64,000 bases of DNA from an uncultured delta proteobacterium (GTDB lineage Bacteria > Desulfobacterota > Syntrophia > Syntrophales > Smithellaceae), in assembly GCA_903907985.1 (NCBI GenBank), contig CAIVQG010000047.1, positions 1 through 64,000 of the forward strand, in the 5' to 3' direction. The notes under the pieces were generated by a model that did no database searches, had not been told where the DNA came from, and was given only the letters and a program-made list of their open reading frames with translations. The translations under genes and the position numbers were made by a program. Position 1 is the stretch's first letter. Every line of letters starts with the position of its first letter. Below, piece by piece: positions 7,607-37,972 of the stretch.

Positions 7607-7959
7607 TGGTGGAGGCGGCGGGAATTGAACCCGCGTCCGAAAACCTTCCGCTGCAGCTTCTACGTACGTAGCCTTCGTTTTAGAACCTTCACGCTGGATT
7701 GCTCCCTAAGGCCGGATCGCCCCGCGCTATCCTGTAAGTATTCGCCGCCCTCCCCCAGGCAAGAAGTTTGGCTATCCTGTCTTAATGACGTCCTAGTCCA
7801 GCCAACAGGCAAACCGGGTAGAACGTTAGCCGTCTAAGCGGCTAAAGCGTAATCGTAGTTTTCTGCGATTATATGTTTCCTACCTGTTTAACGAGGCCTG
7901 TAGGAACCTCGGTACGCTTCTACAACTTCAAATGTCCCCGTCGAAACCGTTACGCCCCC
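7607..7959 (-). ncRNA. ssrA: Transfer-messenger RNA (tmRNA)
   Basis: 353 bases. The 5' end GGGGGCG pairs with CGCCTCC before the ACCA 3' end (7607-7610), giving a 7-base-pair tRNA-like acceptor stem. GGTTTCGACGGGGACA and GGGTTCAATTCCC are the hallmark D-like and T-arm sequences. The tag frame is at 7834-7866: GCA resume codon, then tag AENYDYALAA and TAG. It rescues stalled ribosomes with SmpB. A -35/-10 pair lies just upstream and a terminator just downstream. Confidence 0.97.
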
Positions 7960-8211: not shown

Positions 8212-10410
8212 ATGATTAAAAACAAGAAACTTTTTCCTATCTTTGTCACTACGATATTTTTTATTGCTTTAGCACTGACAGCAACAGGTGCTTATGCCGA
8301 AAAGCCTATAATACAGGAAGCCATTCCTCTCATCGTCGATAATTATATTGATCAGCCGGAGATGTCCTCTCTGGCCACACTGGCTCTCGAAGGCGCCAGA
8401 TTAAAACTGCAACAGGAGAAGAAGGATATATCCGCGCTGAACGCTTTGCCCGCAAATTCAGGACAGGATAAAAATGCAGTCATTGCTTTTATCAAAGACG
8501 GCCTCGCTAAATTATCCGACCAGTCCGGCATTTCTTATCAGGAGCTGGAATATGCCGCCCTGAAGAATCTAACCGTCTCCCTCGACCCGAATAGTGGTTT
8601 CTTAGACCCGCAGGAAATGAAGGAACTGATAACTTCTCAAAAAGGTGTTTTTGCCGGAGTCGGCATGGAAGTAGGCATTAAAGATAATGTGCTCACAGTC
8701 GTAAGTCCTATTGATGATTCTCCGGCTCTGGCGGCCGGTATTTTAGCCGGAGACCAGATTTTGCAGATTGACAACACACCCACAAAGAATCTCCCTATCG
8801 TGCAATCTGTTAATTTAATTCGGGGTTATGCAGGCAGCATGGTAAGAATTCTGGTGATGCGCAAAGGGTTCGACAAACCACGGGAATTTGCTATCAGGCG
8901 CGCGCTAATCACTGTCAAAAGTGTTAAATCCAGGCAATTGGAAGAAGAAATCGGCTATCTGCGTATAGCCTCTTTTCAGGAACAGACTGCGGAAGAAGTA
9001 GAAGAAGCACTCAATGCCCTGGGCTCCCGCCAACAGAAGCTGAAGGGCTTAGTCATTGATTTGCGCAACAATCCGGGCGGACTGCTCGATCAATCCGTAA
9101 AAGTTGCCGATAAGTTTATTGATAACGACCTGATTATAACCGTCAAAGGAAGAGCTGCCAATTCTGAAGCCAAACATACCGGAAAAACTTTGGGCACACA
9201 TCCTCCATACCCTATAATTATCCTTATTAACAGTGGCAGCGCCAGCGCCGCGGAAATTCTCTCCGGCAGCCTGCATTCTTATGGCAAGGCAGTGCTCGTG
9301 GGAGAAAAAACATTTGGGAAAGGCACTGTCCAGTCAATATACAACTTAGCGGACGGTTCCGGATTGAAACTGACAACCCACCGGTATTATCTGCCGCAAG
9401 GTCAGCCCATCGGCCAAGGTATTATTCCGGATGTTGTTCTTGCTGAAAAAGAAGGTGACGACTATCCCCTGGCTGTCGCCCAAAACGTTCTGCAAAAAGC
9501 GATCAAAAGCGGGCGTCCGGCTAATTTTGATCAATTAATCACTCTAGCCCAACAGACGGTTCCGGCTTCCACACCTTCGGCGCAGGCTAATGCCTCAGCG
9601 GATAAAGTTACTGCGCGGCAGACCAATACAACGGCAATCACCATTGAAAAGCCATCTTTTACTGCGGCCGAAAGAATCTGGACGGAAAATGATCTGGCCG
9701 TAATTATCGGTGTGGAAAAATATCAGGATTTACCGGCTGCCGAATATTCGGCCAAAGACGCACGCTTAGTTAAAGATTACCTGATTTCTCTGGGATTAAA
9801 AGAGCGCAATGTCGAGCTTTTATTAAACGAACGGGCGACTCTTTCCAGCATTAAAAAAACCCTGGAGAGCTGGTTGCCTAACCGCACCAAGAAAAATAGC
9901 CGCGTGCTGATTTACTATTCGGGGCACGGAGCACCGGAGGCCGCTTCCGGTGATGCCTATCTGGTTCCTTATGACGGCGATCCCAATTATCTCAGTGATA
10001 CCGGTTATCCTCTTCAACGCCTGTATGAGAGACTGGGCCGCTTAAAGGTTGCAGAAGTGATCGTTGTGCTTGATTCCTGTTTTTCGGGTGCGGGCGGCCG
10101 AAGCGTGCTGGCCAAAGGCGCCCGCCCTCTGGTGATGATGGCGGAAACACCCGTTATCAGCGCCAATATGGTTGTGCTTTCCGCCGCAGAAGGAAATCAG
10201 ATCAGCACTTCTTCACCGGATAAGGGTCACGGCCTTTTCACCTATTATTTCTTAAAAGCTTTAAATGACGGCAGGAAAAATATTGCAGATGTTTACGATT
10301 ATATCAAACCGCAGGTTGAGGACGACGCCAAATCGCTCAACGTCCGGCAAACACCGCAAATCAGCCCCAAAATGGAAAAACTCCAGAAGAAATTTTATCT
10401 GAGGAACTAG
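8212..10410 (+). CDS. Secreted S41 C-terminal-processing protease fused to a caspase-like (C14) domain
   Basis: 732 residues from ATG 8212 (GGAGAAAG 4 bases upstream). Signal peptide at residues 1-29 (ends GAYA). Then a helical region, a PDZ domain (about 145-235, GVGMEVGIKDNVLTVVSPID) and an S41 catalytic domain with Ser345 (GSASAAE) and Lys370 (TFGKGTVQ), the Ser/Lys dyad of CtpA/Prc proteases. After a Ser/Thr/Ala-rich linker (about 440-490) comes a caspase domain with His572 (YYSGHGA) and Cys623 (VLDSCFSG), both intact. S41 proteases trim envelope proteins; the fused caspase-like domain suggests a regulated double protease in the periplasm. First gene of a three-gene operon (gaps 30 and 28 bases). 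Confidence 0.93.
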   Translation: MIKNKKLFPIFVTTIFFIALALTATGAYAEKPIIQEAIPLIVDNYIDQPEMSSLATLALEGARLKLQQEKKDISALNALPANSGQDKNAVIAFIKDGLAKLSDQSGISYQELEYAALKNLTVSLDPNSGFLDPQEMKELITSQKGVFAGVGMEVGIKDNVLTVVSPIDDSPALAAGILAGDQILQIDNTPTKNLPIVQSVNLIRGYAGSMVRILVMRKGFDKPREFAIRRALITVKSVKSRQLEEEIGYLRIASFQEQTAEEVEEALNALGSRQQKLKGLVIDLRNNPGGLLDQSVKVADKFIDNDLIITVKGRAANSEAKHTGKTLGTHPPYPIIILINSGSASAAEILSGSLHSYGKAVLVGEKTFGKGTVQSIYNLADGSGLKLTTHRYYLPQGQPIGQGIIPDVVLAEKEGDDYPLAVAQNVLQKAIKSGRPANFDQLITLAQQTVPASTPSAQANASADKVTARQTNTTAITIEKPSFTAAERIWTENDLAVIIGVEKYQDLPAAEYSAKDARLVKDYLISLGLKERNVELLLNERATLSSIKKTLESWLPNRTKKNSRVLIYYSGHGAPEAASGDAYLVPYDGDPNYLSDTGYPLQRLYERLGRLKVAEVIVVLDSCFSGAGGRSVLAKGARPLVMMAETPVISANMVVLSAAEGNQISTSSPDKGHGLFTYYFLKALNDGRKNIADVYDYIKPQVEDDAKSLNVRQTPQISPKMEKLQKKFYLRN

Positions 10411-10440
10411 ATTTTTAAACCATTCTAAGAGGAATAATTT

Positions 10441-11748
10441 ATGAGAAAAATATTTACACTTATTACAATTATAACATTTCTTATAACTCTTTCGGCATGC
10501 GCTACAGTAACATCGTTGGGAAGAGCGGCAAAGGACGGCGATATTAAAAAAGTAGAAGCTCTTTTAAATGAAGGCGCTAATGTGAATGCGGTTGTCACAC
10601 CTGGCCTTTCACCGTTACATGAAGCAGTGTTCAACGACGCCTCTTTAGATATCGTCCGTCTCTTGCTGGACAGAGGAGCCGACGTCAATAAGAAAAGTTG
10701 TGGTGATGGATGGGCTTCCACTTGCAATTGCTCAACCTCTCTATATATTGCATCCTGTAGAGGAAATGTCAAGATGGTGAAGCTCCTGCTTGACTATGGA
10801 GCAGATGTCTCCCTTGTTCACTACGACAAGAAGACACCTTTAAGAATAGCGCAAGAACAAGGGCATACAACAATTGCCCATATACTCAAGGAAGCTGAAG
10901 AAAAACAAAATATAACGCTTTATGCAAAAAGCGACAATAATATTTTGGCCTCCGGCAAGAAATCATCTAATGCTCTTATCAAGCAAGACGTTGATGAATT
11001 GCCGGCAATGAAAGTAACACCGAATAAAAACGCTTATGCCATAGTAATTGGCATTGAAAACTATCGCCAAAAACTTCCCAAAGCTGATTTTGCAGCAGCT
11101 GACGCGAACATCATTTCGGAGTATTTAACGAAAGCAATGGGCTTTCCCGAAGAAAATGTAATTACCCTGATCAACGATAGAGCCTTAAAGAGTGACATGG
11201 AGAAATATTTCGATCGTTGGCTAAGTAATAATGTAGAAGAAAACGGCAGAGTATTTATCTACTATTCCGGACACGGCGCTCCGAATACCAAAACCGGCGA
11301 TGCATATCTTGTCCCCTATGACGGTGATCCCACATTTATAACCGAGACAGGTTATCCGATTACGCGCCTCTATGAATCACTGGGCAAATTAAGGGCCAAA
11401 GATATCACCGTAGTTCTCGATTCCTGTTTTTCCGGCGGCGGTGGCCGCTCTGTTCTGGCGAAGGGCGCCAAACCTCTTGTCATGACGATCAATATGCCCG
11501 CCATACGAAAAAACATGTCTGTGATAACAGCATCATCGGGAGATCAAATCAGTTCGGCTTATGAAGAACAAGGACATGGGTTATTCACCTACTTCCTGCT
11601 CAAGGGCTTCAAGGACGAAAATTTAATTAAGAAAGACGGTTCCATCAAGATCGACGACCTTTTTAATTATGTCAAACCCCAGGTGGAGCGCATCGCGCGC
11701 AAGCAATTTAACAACGAGCAGACGCCCCAACTATGGATGGGGAAGTGA
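10441..11748 (+). CDS. Ankyrin-repeat lipoprotein with caspase-like (C14) domain
   Basis: 435 residues. A lipobox LSAC at Cys20, followed by Ala, points to an outer-membrane lipoprotein. Residues about 25-150 hold three to four ankyrin repeats (DGDIKKVEALLNEGANVN, LDIVRLLLDRGADVN, NVKMVKLLLDYGADV). After a linker, the caspase domain carries His278 (YYSGHGA) and Cys329 (VLDSCFSGGGGRS). This domain is strikingly close to that of the preceding gene (shared GDAYLVPYDGDP and GRSVLAKGA), so it probably arose by local duplication. AGAGGAAT serves as ribosome site. Inference: the ankyrin part recruits a partner or substrate for the envelope protease. Confidence 0.92.
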   Translation: MRKIFTLITIITFLITLSACATVTSLGRAAKDGDIKKVEALLNEGANVNAVVTPGLSPLHEAVFNDASLDIVRLLLDRGADVNKKSCGDGWASTCNCSTSLYIASCRGNVKMVKLLLDYGADVSLVHYDKKTPLRIAQEQGHTTIAHILKEAEEKQNITLYAKSDNNILASGKKSSNALIKQDVDELPAMKVTPNKNAYAIVIGIENYRQKLPKADFAAADANIISEYLTKAMGFPEENVITLINDRALKSDMEKYFDRWLSNNVEENGRVFIYYSGHGAPNTKTGDAYLVPYDGDPTFITETGYPITRLYESLGKLRAKDITVVLDSCFSGGGGRSVLAKGAKPLVMTINMPAIRKNMSVITASSGDQISSAYEEQGHGLFTYFLLKGFKDENLIKKDGSIKIDDLFNYVKPQVERIARKQFNNEQTPQLWMGK

Positions 11749-11776
11749 AAATCCGGAGGGGGAAAGTGACAACACT

Positions 11777-12595
11777 ATGAAAAAACTGTTTCTGATAGCG
11801 ATTACAATCATGCTGATTCCTTTATCCGCCGATGCTGCCGAAAAAGCTCTCTGGGTAACAACCATAGGCGAAGCATATCAGGGCGAAACGGAAATACCCA
11901 CAGAAGTTATTCAAAGAGCAAAGCGCGATGCCCAGAGCAAGGCCATTGAACAAGCTGCCGGAGTATTTCTGAAATCACACACCTTAGTCCATAACAGCCA
12001 GGTTGCTGATGATTTGATCTACGCCGCCGTCCGAGGAAAAATAAATGAAATGATCGTTTTAAATGCGGGGTGGGATAAGCAAGATCGTAATTTATATCAG
12101 ATCAAGATCAAGGCGCTGGTGGAGCCATTATATCCCGAAAAGGGAAAAGGGCTATTGGCCAAGCTTAATCTTTCCAAAACAAAACTCACAGAAGGAGAAG
12201 AAGTTAAAATCTATTATGAAACAAACAGTGATTGCTATCTTTATCTCTTTTCCGTCGCTGCGGACGGCTCTGTTACCTTACTGTTCCCCAATTCCCAAAA
12301 TCAGGAAAACAAGGTTACAGGGGGAAAAGTATACGAATTTCCGGCGCAGGAGAGCAACATCCGTCTCAAAGCAATGTTTCTACCTACCTTCCATGGCAAA
12401 ACCGTTGCCGAGAAAATAAAACTAATTGCTACGAAGAACAAAGAAAATCTTCTGCCGCTGGGTTTTAAAGAAGGGATGTTTCAGGCCTATGATGCAAAAT
12501 CCACCGGCCTTATCAGTGAGCTCGTTAAAAAACTCAATCAAATTGATCCCACCGAATGGTCGGAAGCAACAGCCGAATACGTCATCCGGCGGTAA
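11777..12595 (+). CDS. Secreted FlgT_N/LPP20-like plus DUF4384-type protein
   Basis: 272 residues from ATG 11777. Longer starts would overlap the caspase gene in another frame and lose the signal peptide (residues 1-20, MLIPLSADA). Residues about 25-115 (VIQRAKRDAQSKAIEQAAGVFL..) resemble the FlgT N-terminal/LPP20 fold of envelope proteins. From about 130 comes a DUF4384-like beta domain: LTEGEEVKIYYETNSDCYLY, then VAADGSVTLLFPN. DUF4384 domains are often found with caspase-like or kinase modules and are thought to mediate protein contact. Third gene of the caspase operon. Likely a periplasmic partner or substrate-presenting subunit; no catalytic residues seen. Confidence 0.8.
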   Translation: MKKLFLIAITIMLIPLSADAAEKALWVTTIGEAYQGETEIPTEVIQRAKRDAQSKAIEQAAGVFLKSHTLVHNSQVADDLIYAAVRGKINEMIVLNAGWDKQDRNLYQIKIKALVEPLYPEKGKGLLAKLNLSKTKLTEGEEVKIYYETNSDCYLYLFSVAADGSVTLLFPNSQNQENKVTGGKVYEFPAQESNIRLKAMFLPTFHGKTVAEKIKLIATKNKENLLPLGFKEGMFQAYDAKSTGLISELVKKLNQIDPTEWSEATAEYVIRR

Positions 12596-37581: not shown

Positions 37582-37599
37582 TTTTATAATTAAAGGACG

Positions 37600-37972
37600 G
37601 AAAGAAGAGCATAAGCCGGGTTTTGTCCCGCGCGCAAGTCTCCCCACGACGCGGTGATGATCATTCATCTGGGACAGCAGTTGCCTGCTGCCTCTAGCGA
37701 CACTACCCGAGAACATCAGGCGGGCCGCCCTTAAACGTTCTCCTATTTGGTCTTGCTCCGGATGGGGTTTACCTTGCCTTTTCTGTCGCCAGAAAAGCGG
37801 TGAGCTCTTACCTCGCCTTTTCACCCTTACCCGGGCTTTCGCCCGGGCGGTAATTTTCTGTGGCACTTTCCCTAGGGTCACCCCCGGTCGCCGTTAGCGA
37901 CCATCCTGCCCTGCGGAGCCCGGACTTTCCTCCAGCAGATAAATTCTGCCAGCGATCATCTGATCTTCTCTC
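37600..37972 (-). ncRNA. rnpB: RNase P RNA, bacterial class A
   Basis: About 373 bases. P1 pairs GAGAGAAGA (5', 37972-37964) with TCTTCTTTC (3', 37608-37600). The conserved core GAGGAAAGTCCGGGCTCC, the following GCAGGG, GAAAGTGCCACAGAAA, and GGTAAACCCC all appear in order. Matures tRNA 5' ends. Ends inferred from P1 pairing, so a few bases uncertain. Confidence 0.95.

Follow-up and report, generated by a model that had tools for sequence, protein, structure and literature searches.

A caspase-like protease of metacaspase type and a partner protein, here called P3, are encoded next to each other in the DNA of an uncultured delta proteobacterium, and the two share a phylogenetic profile among related genomes. 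Judging from the sequences, the best reading is that this exported pair represents the conserved core of a three-gene operon, and that the ankyrin repeats and the S41 protease joined to the caspase domains in this organism are variable fronts. In the following, the window indicates the whole stretch of 64,000 nucleotides that was analysed.

Structure of the operon

The operon and its parts were located in the window as follows:

8212-12595, forward strand: three-gene operon of co-directional open frames, with gaps of 30 and 28 bases
8212-10410, forward strand: P0001, S41-caspase fusion of 732 amino acids (signal peptide, N-terminal extension of about 80 amino acids, PDZ, S41, linker, clade A caspase)
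8527-9486, forward strand: PDZ and S41 region of P0001, approximately residues 106-425 (TIGR00225, prc, 285.9 bits against a cut-off of 218.6)
9694-10374, forward strand: caspase (C14) domain of P0001, clade A
10441-11748, forward strand: P0002, ankyrin-caspase lipoprotein of 435 amino acids (lipobox LSAC, ankyrin repeats, linker, clade B caspase)
10978-11004 (approximate position), forward strand: linker IKQDVDELP of P0002 (family consensus (K/R)SDVDELP)
11035-11736, forward strand: caspase (C14) domain of P0002, clade B
11777-12595, forward strand: P3 (P0003), 272 amino acids (FlgT_N-like N-terminal region, DUF4384, conserved C-terminal STGMISDLVKRLN-type segment)

A preliminary description of this DNA had reported three genes with gaps of 28-30 bases, all coding for exported proteins, with two complete caspase His/Cys dyads, an S41 Ser/Lys dyad accompanied by PDZ, ankyrin repeats in P0002 and DUF4384 in P0003, and each of these features was recovered, export as judged by eye. 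Pfam assigns PDZ, Peptidase_S41 (177.6 bits) and Peptidase_C14 (71.0 bits) to P0001, ankyrin repeats and Peptidase_C14 (64.4 bits) to P0002, and DUF4384 (PF14326, 72.2 bits) to P0003, all above the gathering cut-offs (21.4 bits for Peptidase_C14 and 27 bits for DUF4384). The S41 catalytic dyad of P0001 is intact, with Ser in NSGSASAAE and Lys in TFGKG, and so are the His/Cys dyads of both caspase domains (YYSGHGA...LDSCFSG). The N-termini, read by eye, correspond to a Sec signal ending in GAYA and followed by EKP in P0001, to the lipobox in P0002, and to a Sec signal ending in ADA and followed by AEK in P0003.

A tmRNA (ssrA) gene with the tag AENYDYALAA is found at 7607-7959 on the reverse strand, divergent from the operon. 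Proteins tagged by SsrA are degraded by Prc-type S41 proteases (PMC6686036). No tmRNA was seen at the 30 related loci scanned, so its position beside the operon is probably incidental. The window also contains an RNase P class A RNA gene (37597-37971, reverse strand).

Association between caspase and P3

Searching public genomes with a P3 profile returned 65 loci, whose records belong to Deltaproteobacteria/Desulfobacterota, Nitrospirae (Nitrospirota), Nitrospinota and Deferribacteres (Deferribacterota). These loci are mostly contigs of metagenome-assembled genomes (MAGs), gene starts were placed by simple rules, and the trees reported below are quick searches. Loci were considered informative when at least 600 bases of upstream sequence were available, which was true of 52: in 35 of these P3 is immediately preceded, within 200 bp, by a caspase gene of the same orientation, often with a 4-base overlap, and in 43 a caspase gene is present within 2.5 kb, leaving nine without any at this distance. 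With 20 caspases per approximately 3,000 genes, chance alone would give less than one such adjacency.

The same association was found at the level of whole genomes. P3 is present in 22 of the 155 genomes of the order and caspases of the core group (scores above 340 bits) in 19 of them; the two are found together in 18, versus 2.7 expected (hypergeometric p 9e-19, uncorrected for relatedness). Because loci and genomes are phylogenetically related, p-values for the pair are inflated and only indicative. From the adjacency counts, together with the co-occurrence in genomes, a chance association between caspase and P3 can be ruled out. Two of the four genomes with P3 only contain an incomplete core-like caspase, at a contig end in G002 and as a partial match in G463.

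A genome usually possesses one P3 and several core caspases, and the genome from which the window derives has one P3 for five core caspases located at four places; P3 may therefore serve caspases in trans. The three genes had been interpreted as a self-contained proteolytic cascade, and self-containment is not supported, since the constant unit is formed by caspase and P3 and the other core caspases are found elsewhere, without a P3 of their own.

Some loci showed further peculiarities. At L118 (1741-3993) a caspase protein of 751 amino acids with a PDZ-like start is encoded downstream rather than upstream of P3. Small genes resembling toxin-antitoxin systems of the MNT nucleotidyltransferase type, recognised by eye, are found beside caspase and P3 genes at L117, L129, L146 and L161. 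Runs of broken caspase fragments adjoin intact copies at L128 (238-3469) and L129 (4465-5904), and the arrays seem to be renewed through duplication and decay of their copies.

Conserved caspase domains behind exchangeable fronts

The preliminary description relied on the caspase dyads being kept in homologues, and indeed the His/Cys dyad is present in all of the 103 caspase domains compared and in both domains of the window; a reading of these domains as pseudo-caspases is therefore ruled out. A simple pattern detected a lipobox in 58 of the 103 caspases and a signal-like N-terminus in 37. The regions preceding the catalytic domain are much more diverse: among 80 N-terminal regions scanned, ankyrin repeats were found in 37, PDZ in 10, CARDB in 5, WD40 in 4 and S41 in 4, and the front types are scattered over the caspase tree, with 35 changes. 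The ankyrin and DUF4384 parts had both been interpreted as recognition elements, which is not supported in this form: P3 is constant, S41 and ankyrin are optional, and most genomes bearing the unit do not possess the S41 fusion. The 3.4-Mb genome of the organism (G000) contains 20 caspase (C14) genes, eight of which score higher (128-147 bits) and stand apart as a group of their own, outside the P3-linked family.

Most clade B proteins (P0002-like) carry the motif (K/R)SDVDELP immediately N-terminal of the caspase domain, behind fronts that are unrelated to each other. Clade A proteins (P0001-like) possess a related linker, QSDIDKP, mostly with Gln at the place of Lys/Arg, and P0001 itself has no motif. 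Considering all 71 proteins with a motif of this type, Lys or Arg precedes it in 50. When the caspase domain of P0002 was modelled with its linker (pLDDT 85.7, pTM 0.88), the linker was predicted with block-mean pLDDT values of 83-89; it is therefore probably part of the folded caspase unit, and this would account for its being conserved.

The caspase model matches metacaspases, MALT1 and caspases overall with Z scores of 20-22. For MALT1, plant metacaspase 4 and GSU0716 (3bij) the values are 21-22 over about 210 residues, a shared fold at an identity of only 18-22%; GSU0716 is uncharacterised, and neither MALT1 nor plant metacaspase 4 is known to be an envelope protein. Two invariant residues, D51 and D157, align with Asp residues that belong, in solved metacaspases, to the motifs NDA and DSC. 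In TbMC2 two such Asp are located in the pocket for basic substrates (PMC6426788), so that the acidic pocket residues fit a Lys/Arg specificity of the caspase domains. Regarding the protease identities proposed earlier, membership of P0001 in the S41 family is confirmed by its score above the TIGR00225 cut-off, and the acidic residues agree with cleavage after Arg/Lys, a specificity that is predicted from sequence.

The partner protein P3

A DUF4384 match was found in 19 of 19 P3 orthologues. The orthologues that make up the P3 profile are 53-85% identical to P0003; the nearest named relative found comes from a Smithella MAG (76% identity), so that the organism is likely to be a syntrophic anaerobe of the Syntrophales. 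The partner had been described as FlgT_N/DUF4384-like. FlgT_N (PF16548) gave no significant match in P0003 itself and a weak one in 11 of the 19 orthologues (best E 7e-4), a weak resemblance of the N-terminal part. The DUF4384 region is modelled as an Ig-like beta sandwich, and the fold search gave no match with E below 0.001. Since its matches are only generic Ig-like ones (best Z 8.6), no known relative of P3 is claimed.

Two stretches of P3, approximately residues 67-83 and 226-244, combine strong conservation with low model confidence when the protein is modelled alone. Segments that acquire their fold on contact with a partner are expected to model poorly in this way, and it is possible that these stretches are interfaces. 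A conserved (K/R)-STG in P3, with 51 of 59 letters basic, might be a point of cleavage, but since many further columns of P3 are equally basic we keep it only as a lead.

The S41-caspase fusion

The fusion of S41 and caspase was found in five genomes, namely the genome of the window, G003 (corresponding to L109, 84% identical), G034, G531 (corresponding to L141) and the Nitrospirae MAG L115; within the order its frequency is four in 155 genomes. That the three genes would stay together in relatives had been an expectation of the preliminary description, and the order S41-caspase, caspase, P3 is in fact repeated, with short gaps, in four of the five genomes with the fusion, belonging to two phyla. 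The exception is G034, where the fusion lies away from the P3 gene. In phage records P0001 gave only partial matches of S41 type, none covering 80%.

Compared with 51 CtpA-type proteins, the S41 halves of the five fusions form one clade (SH-aLRT 98), and they have in common the N-terminal extension of about 80 amino acids, which is absent from CtpA. The caspase halves, on the other hand, fall into clade A (the window and G003), clade B (G034 and G531) and a divergent clade (L115), and a tree joining all five in one clade was rejected by the AU test on 30 representatives (p-AU 4e-9, or 1.1e-7 without L115). One S41 module has therefore been paired with different caspases: a single origin of the whole fusion is contradicted by the AU test, while a single origin of the S41 half is kept. 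The simplest reading of these trees is that a single S41 lineage exchanged its caspase part, presumably through recombination with caspase genes nearby. The Ser/Lys dyad of S41 and the His/Cys dyad of the caspase are retained in all five fusions, and the retention of both active sites after the exchange argues that both activities matter.

The combination of PDZ and S41 with a Ser/Lys dyad is that of CtpA, CtpB and Prc (S41A), and the structure 7rpq and those of CtpB match P0001 by sequence; P0001 differs by its C-terminal caspase and by the extension seen only in fusions. Residues 67-424, comprising S41, also align with the MXAN_5808 family (TIGR03900, E 4e-99), but the score of 332.9 bits stays below the cut-off of 660.95, and the remainder of the 973-position model is unaligned.

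A putative envelope proteolysis module and its alternatives

The explanation that we favour, tentatively and with a probability judged somewhat below even, is that the operon encodes an envelope proteolysis module. Its constant parts would be a Sec-exported, often lipid-anchored protease of metacaspase type and the exported P3, and the variable front (ankyrin, PDZ, CARDB, WD40 or S41-PDZ), attached through the conserved linker, would select the substrate or the location. The front would capture a target in the periplasm or at a membrane and the caspase would cut it after Lys or Arg; P3 would be an obligate cofactor of the caspase, its inhibitor or the first protein that it cuts. Where S41 is fused to the caspase, such a cut would create a new C-terminus, which the PDZ/S41 unit could then trim. 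It is known that CTP proteases start at substrate C-termini bound by PDZ (PMC6686036). This gating, the metacaspase/MALT1 fold and the Asp residues suited to a basic P1 are the grounds on which we propose targeted proteolysis in the envelope and, for the fusion, a cut followed by trimming. It should be noted, however, that CTP proteases are known for hydrophobic C-termini; given this preference, an end in Lys or Arg may be a poor S41 substrate, which argues against the trimming step. A broader claim would be that envelope caspases of at least four bacterial phyla make up an undescribed class: a constant caspase, with P3 as its indispensable exported cofactor, would be redirected by interchangeable fronts, and the caspase endoprotease would have been combined repeatedly with the S41 unit, which processes C-termini, into a two-step protein shredder. 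In this extended form we consider it doubtful.

The two caspases of the operon could also indicate a zymogen cascade, as the preliminary description proposed, with one caspase cleaving and activating the other, or cleaving the S41 module. Caspases of clades A and B do occur together at 12 loci, as they do in the window, and the Lys/Arg preceding the linker could be a metacaspase cut site that frees the catalytic domain from its anchor. We nevertheless judge a cascade rather improbable, as many loci have a single caspase and so manage without a second one, the linkers of clade A mostly show Gln and P0001 has no motif, and the linker is predicted to be ordered together with the caspase domain. 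An exported toxin was also considered, in which the C-terminal caspase would be toxic, the ankyrin repeats would form a stalk and P3 would be an exported immunity protein. Among polymorphic toxins there are proteins that combine ankyrin repeats with a signal peptide and with a caspase toxin domain at the C-terminus (PMC3482391), a layout matched by the exported ankyrin-caspase protein; the P3 gene immediately downstream of the caspase gene, the patchy distribution and the fragment arrays of L128 and L129 point in the same direction. However, the variable C-terminal toxin and polymorphic immunity gene that characterise such systems are not found here: it is the front that varies, with a catalytic end that stays the same, which is the reverse arrangement, and P3 is conserved, with at least 53% identity. 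Moreover, the organism has five core caspases at four places and one P3, and Pfam revealed no separate toxin domain in the operon proteins, so that a role in antagonism looks unlikely.

A self-destruction or phage-defence effector, an envelope counterpart of the known cytosolic caspase systems, would agree with the matches to the PADLOC caspase model (5e-18 and 2e-19) and with the patchy presence of P3 in the order. We hold it to be less probable still, since the operon contains none of the NTPase, sensor or nucleotide-signal genes that distinguish anti-phage caspases, the N-termini are of exported type, P3 has no PADLOC match and no match to P0003 was found on plasmids. The best NCBIfam caspase match of the two window domains, EACC1-associated caspases (NF047832), reaches 84.6 and 88.3 bits, below the cut-off of 140, and no EACC1 partner was seen. 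A nutritional or maintenance set digesting periplasmic or extracellular protein could account for two protease types within one exported protein, and the closest named relatives belong to Smithella, whose lifestyle is anaerobic and syntrophic. Digestion alone leaves P3 unexplained, however, and the near-obligate link to this conserved non-enzymatic protein, together with fronts of adaptor type, suggests regulated and targeted action; we regard digestion as very improbable.

Relation to described systems and significance

The caspase-P3 operon, read as a module for envelope proteolysis, can be considered a variant that extends known bacterial metacaspase operons. Operons with up to three metacaspases have been described in Deltaproteobacteria (Desulfococcus oleovorans Hxd3) by Asplund-Samuelsson 2012 (PMC3501461), and there too C14 domains are found behind varied N-terminal modules with likely signal peptides. 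Ankyrin, S41 and periplasm are words absent from the main text of that paper, and no description of a constant DUF4384 partner or of an S41 fusion was found there. An independent case in which a second protease, a caspase domain and DUF4384 are combined is the trypsin - pseudo-orthocaspase - DUF4384 protein of Alphaproteobacteria (PMC6426788); it consists of one polypeptide with trypsin and a Gln-Cys pseudo-enzyme, whereas in the window separate genes, S41 and intact His-Cys dyads are found. No description of the caspase-P3 pair, of the linker motif or of the S41-caspase fusion was found in open-access full texts.

Bacterial caspase homologues have so far been discussed mostly as cytosolic enzymes of signalling, death and defence. 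If the interpretation proposed here is true, an exported caspase-partner pair with exchangeable fronts would take this class of proteases into the cell envelope, the nearly unstudied DUF4384 would gain a concrete partner, and the fusion would offer a naturally occurring coupling of two unrelated proteases on one chain.
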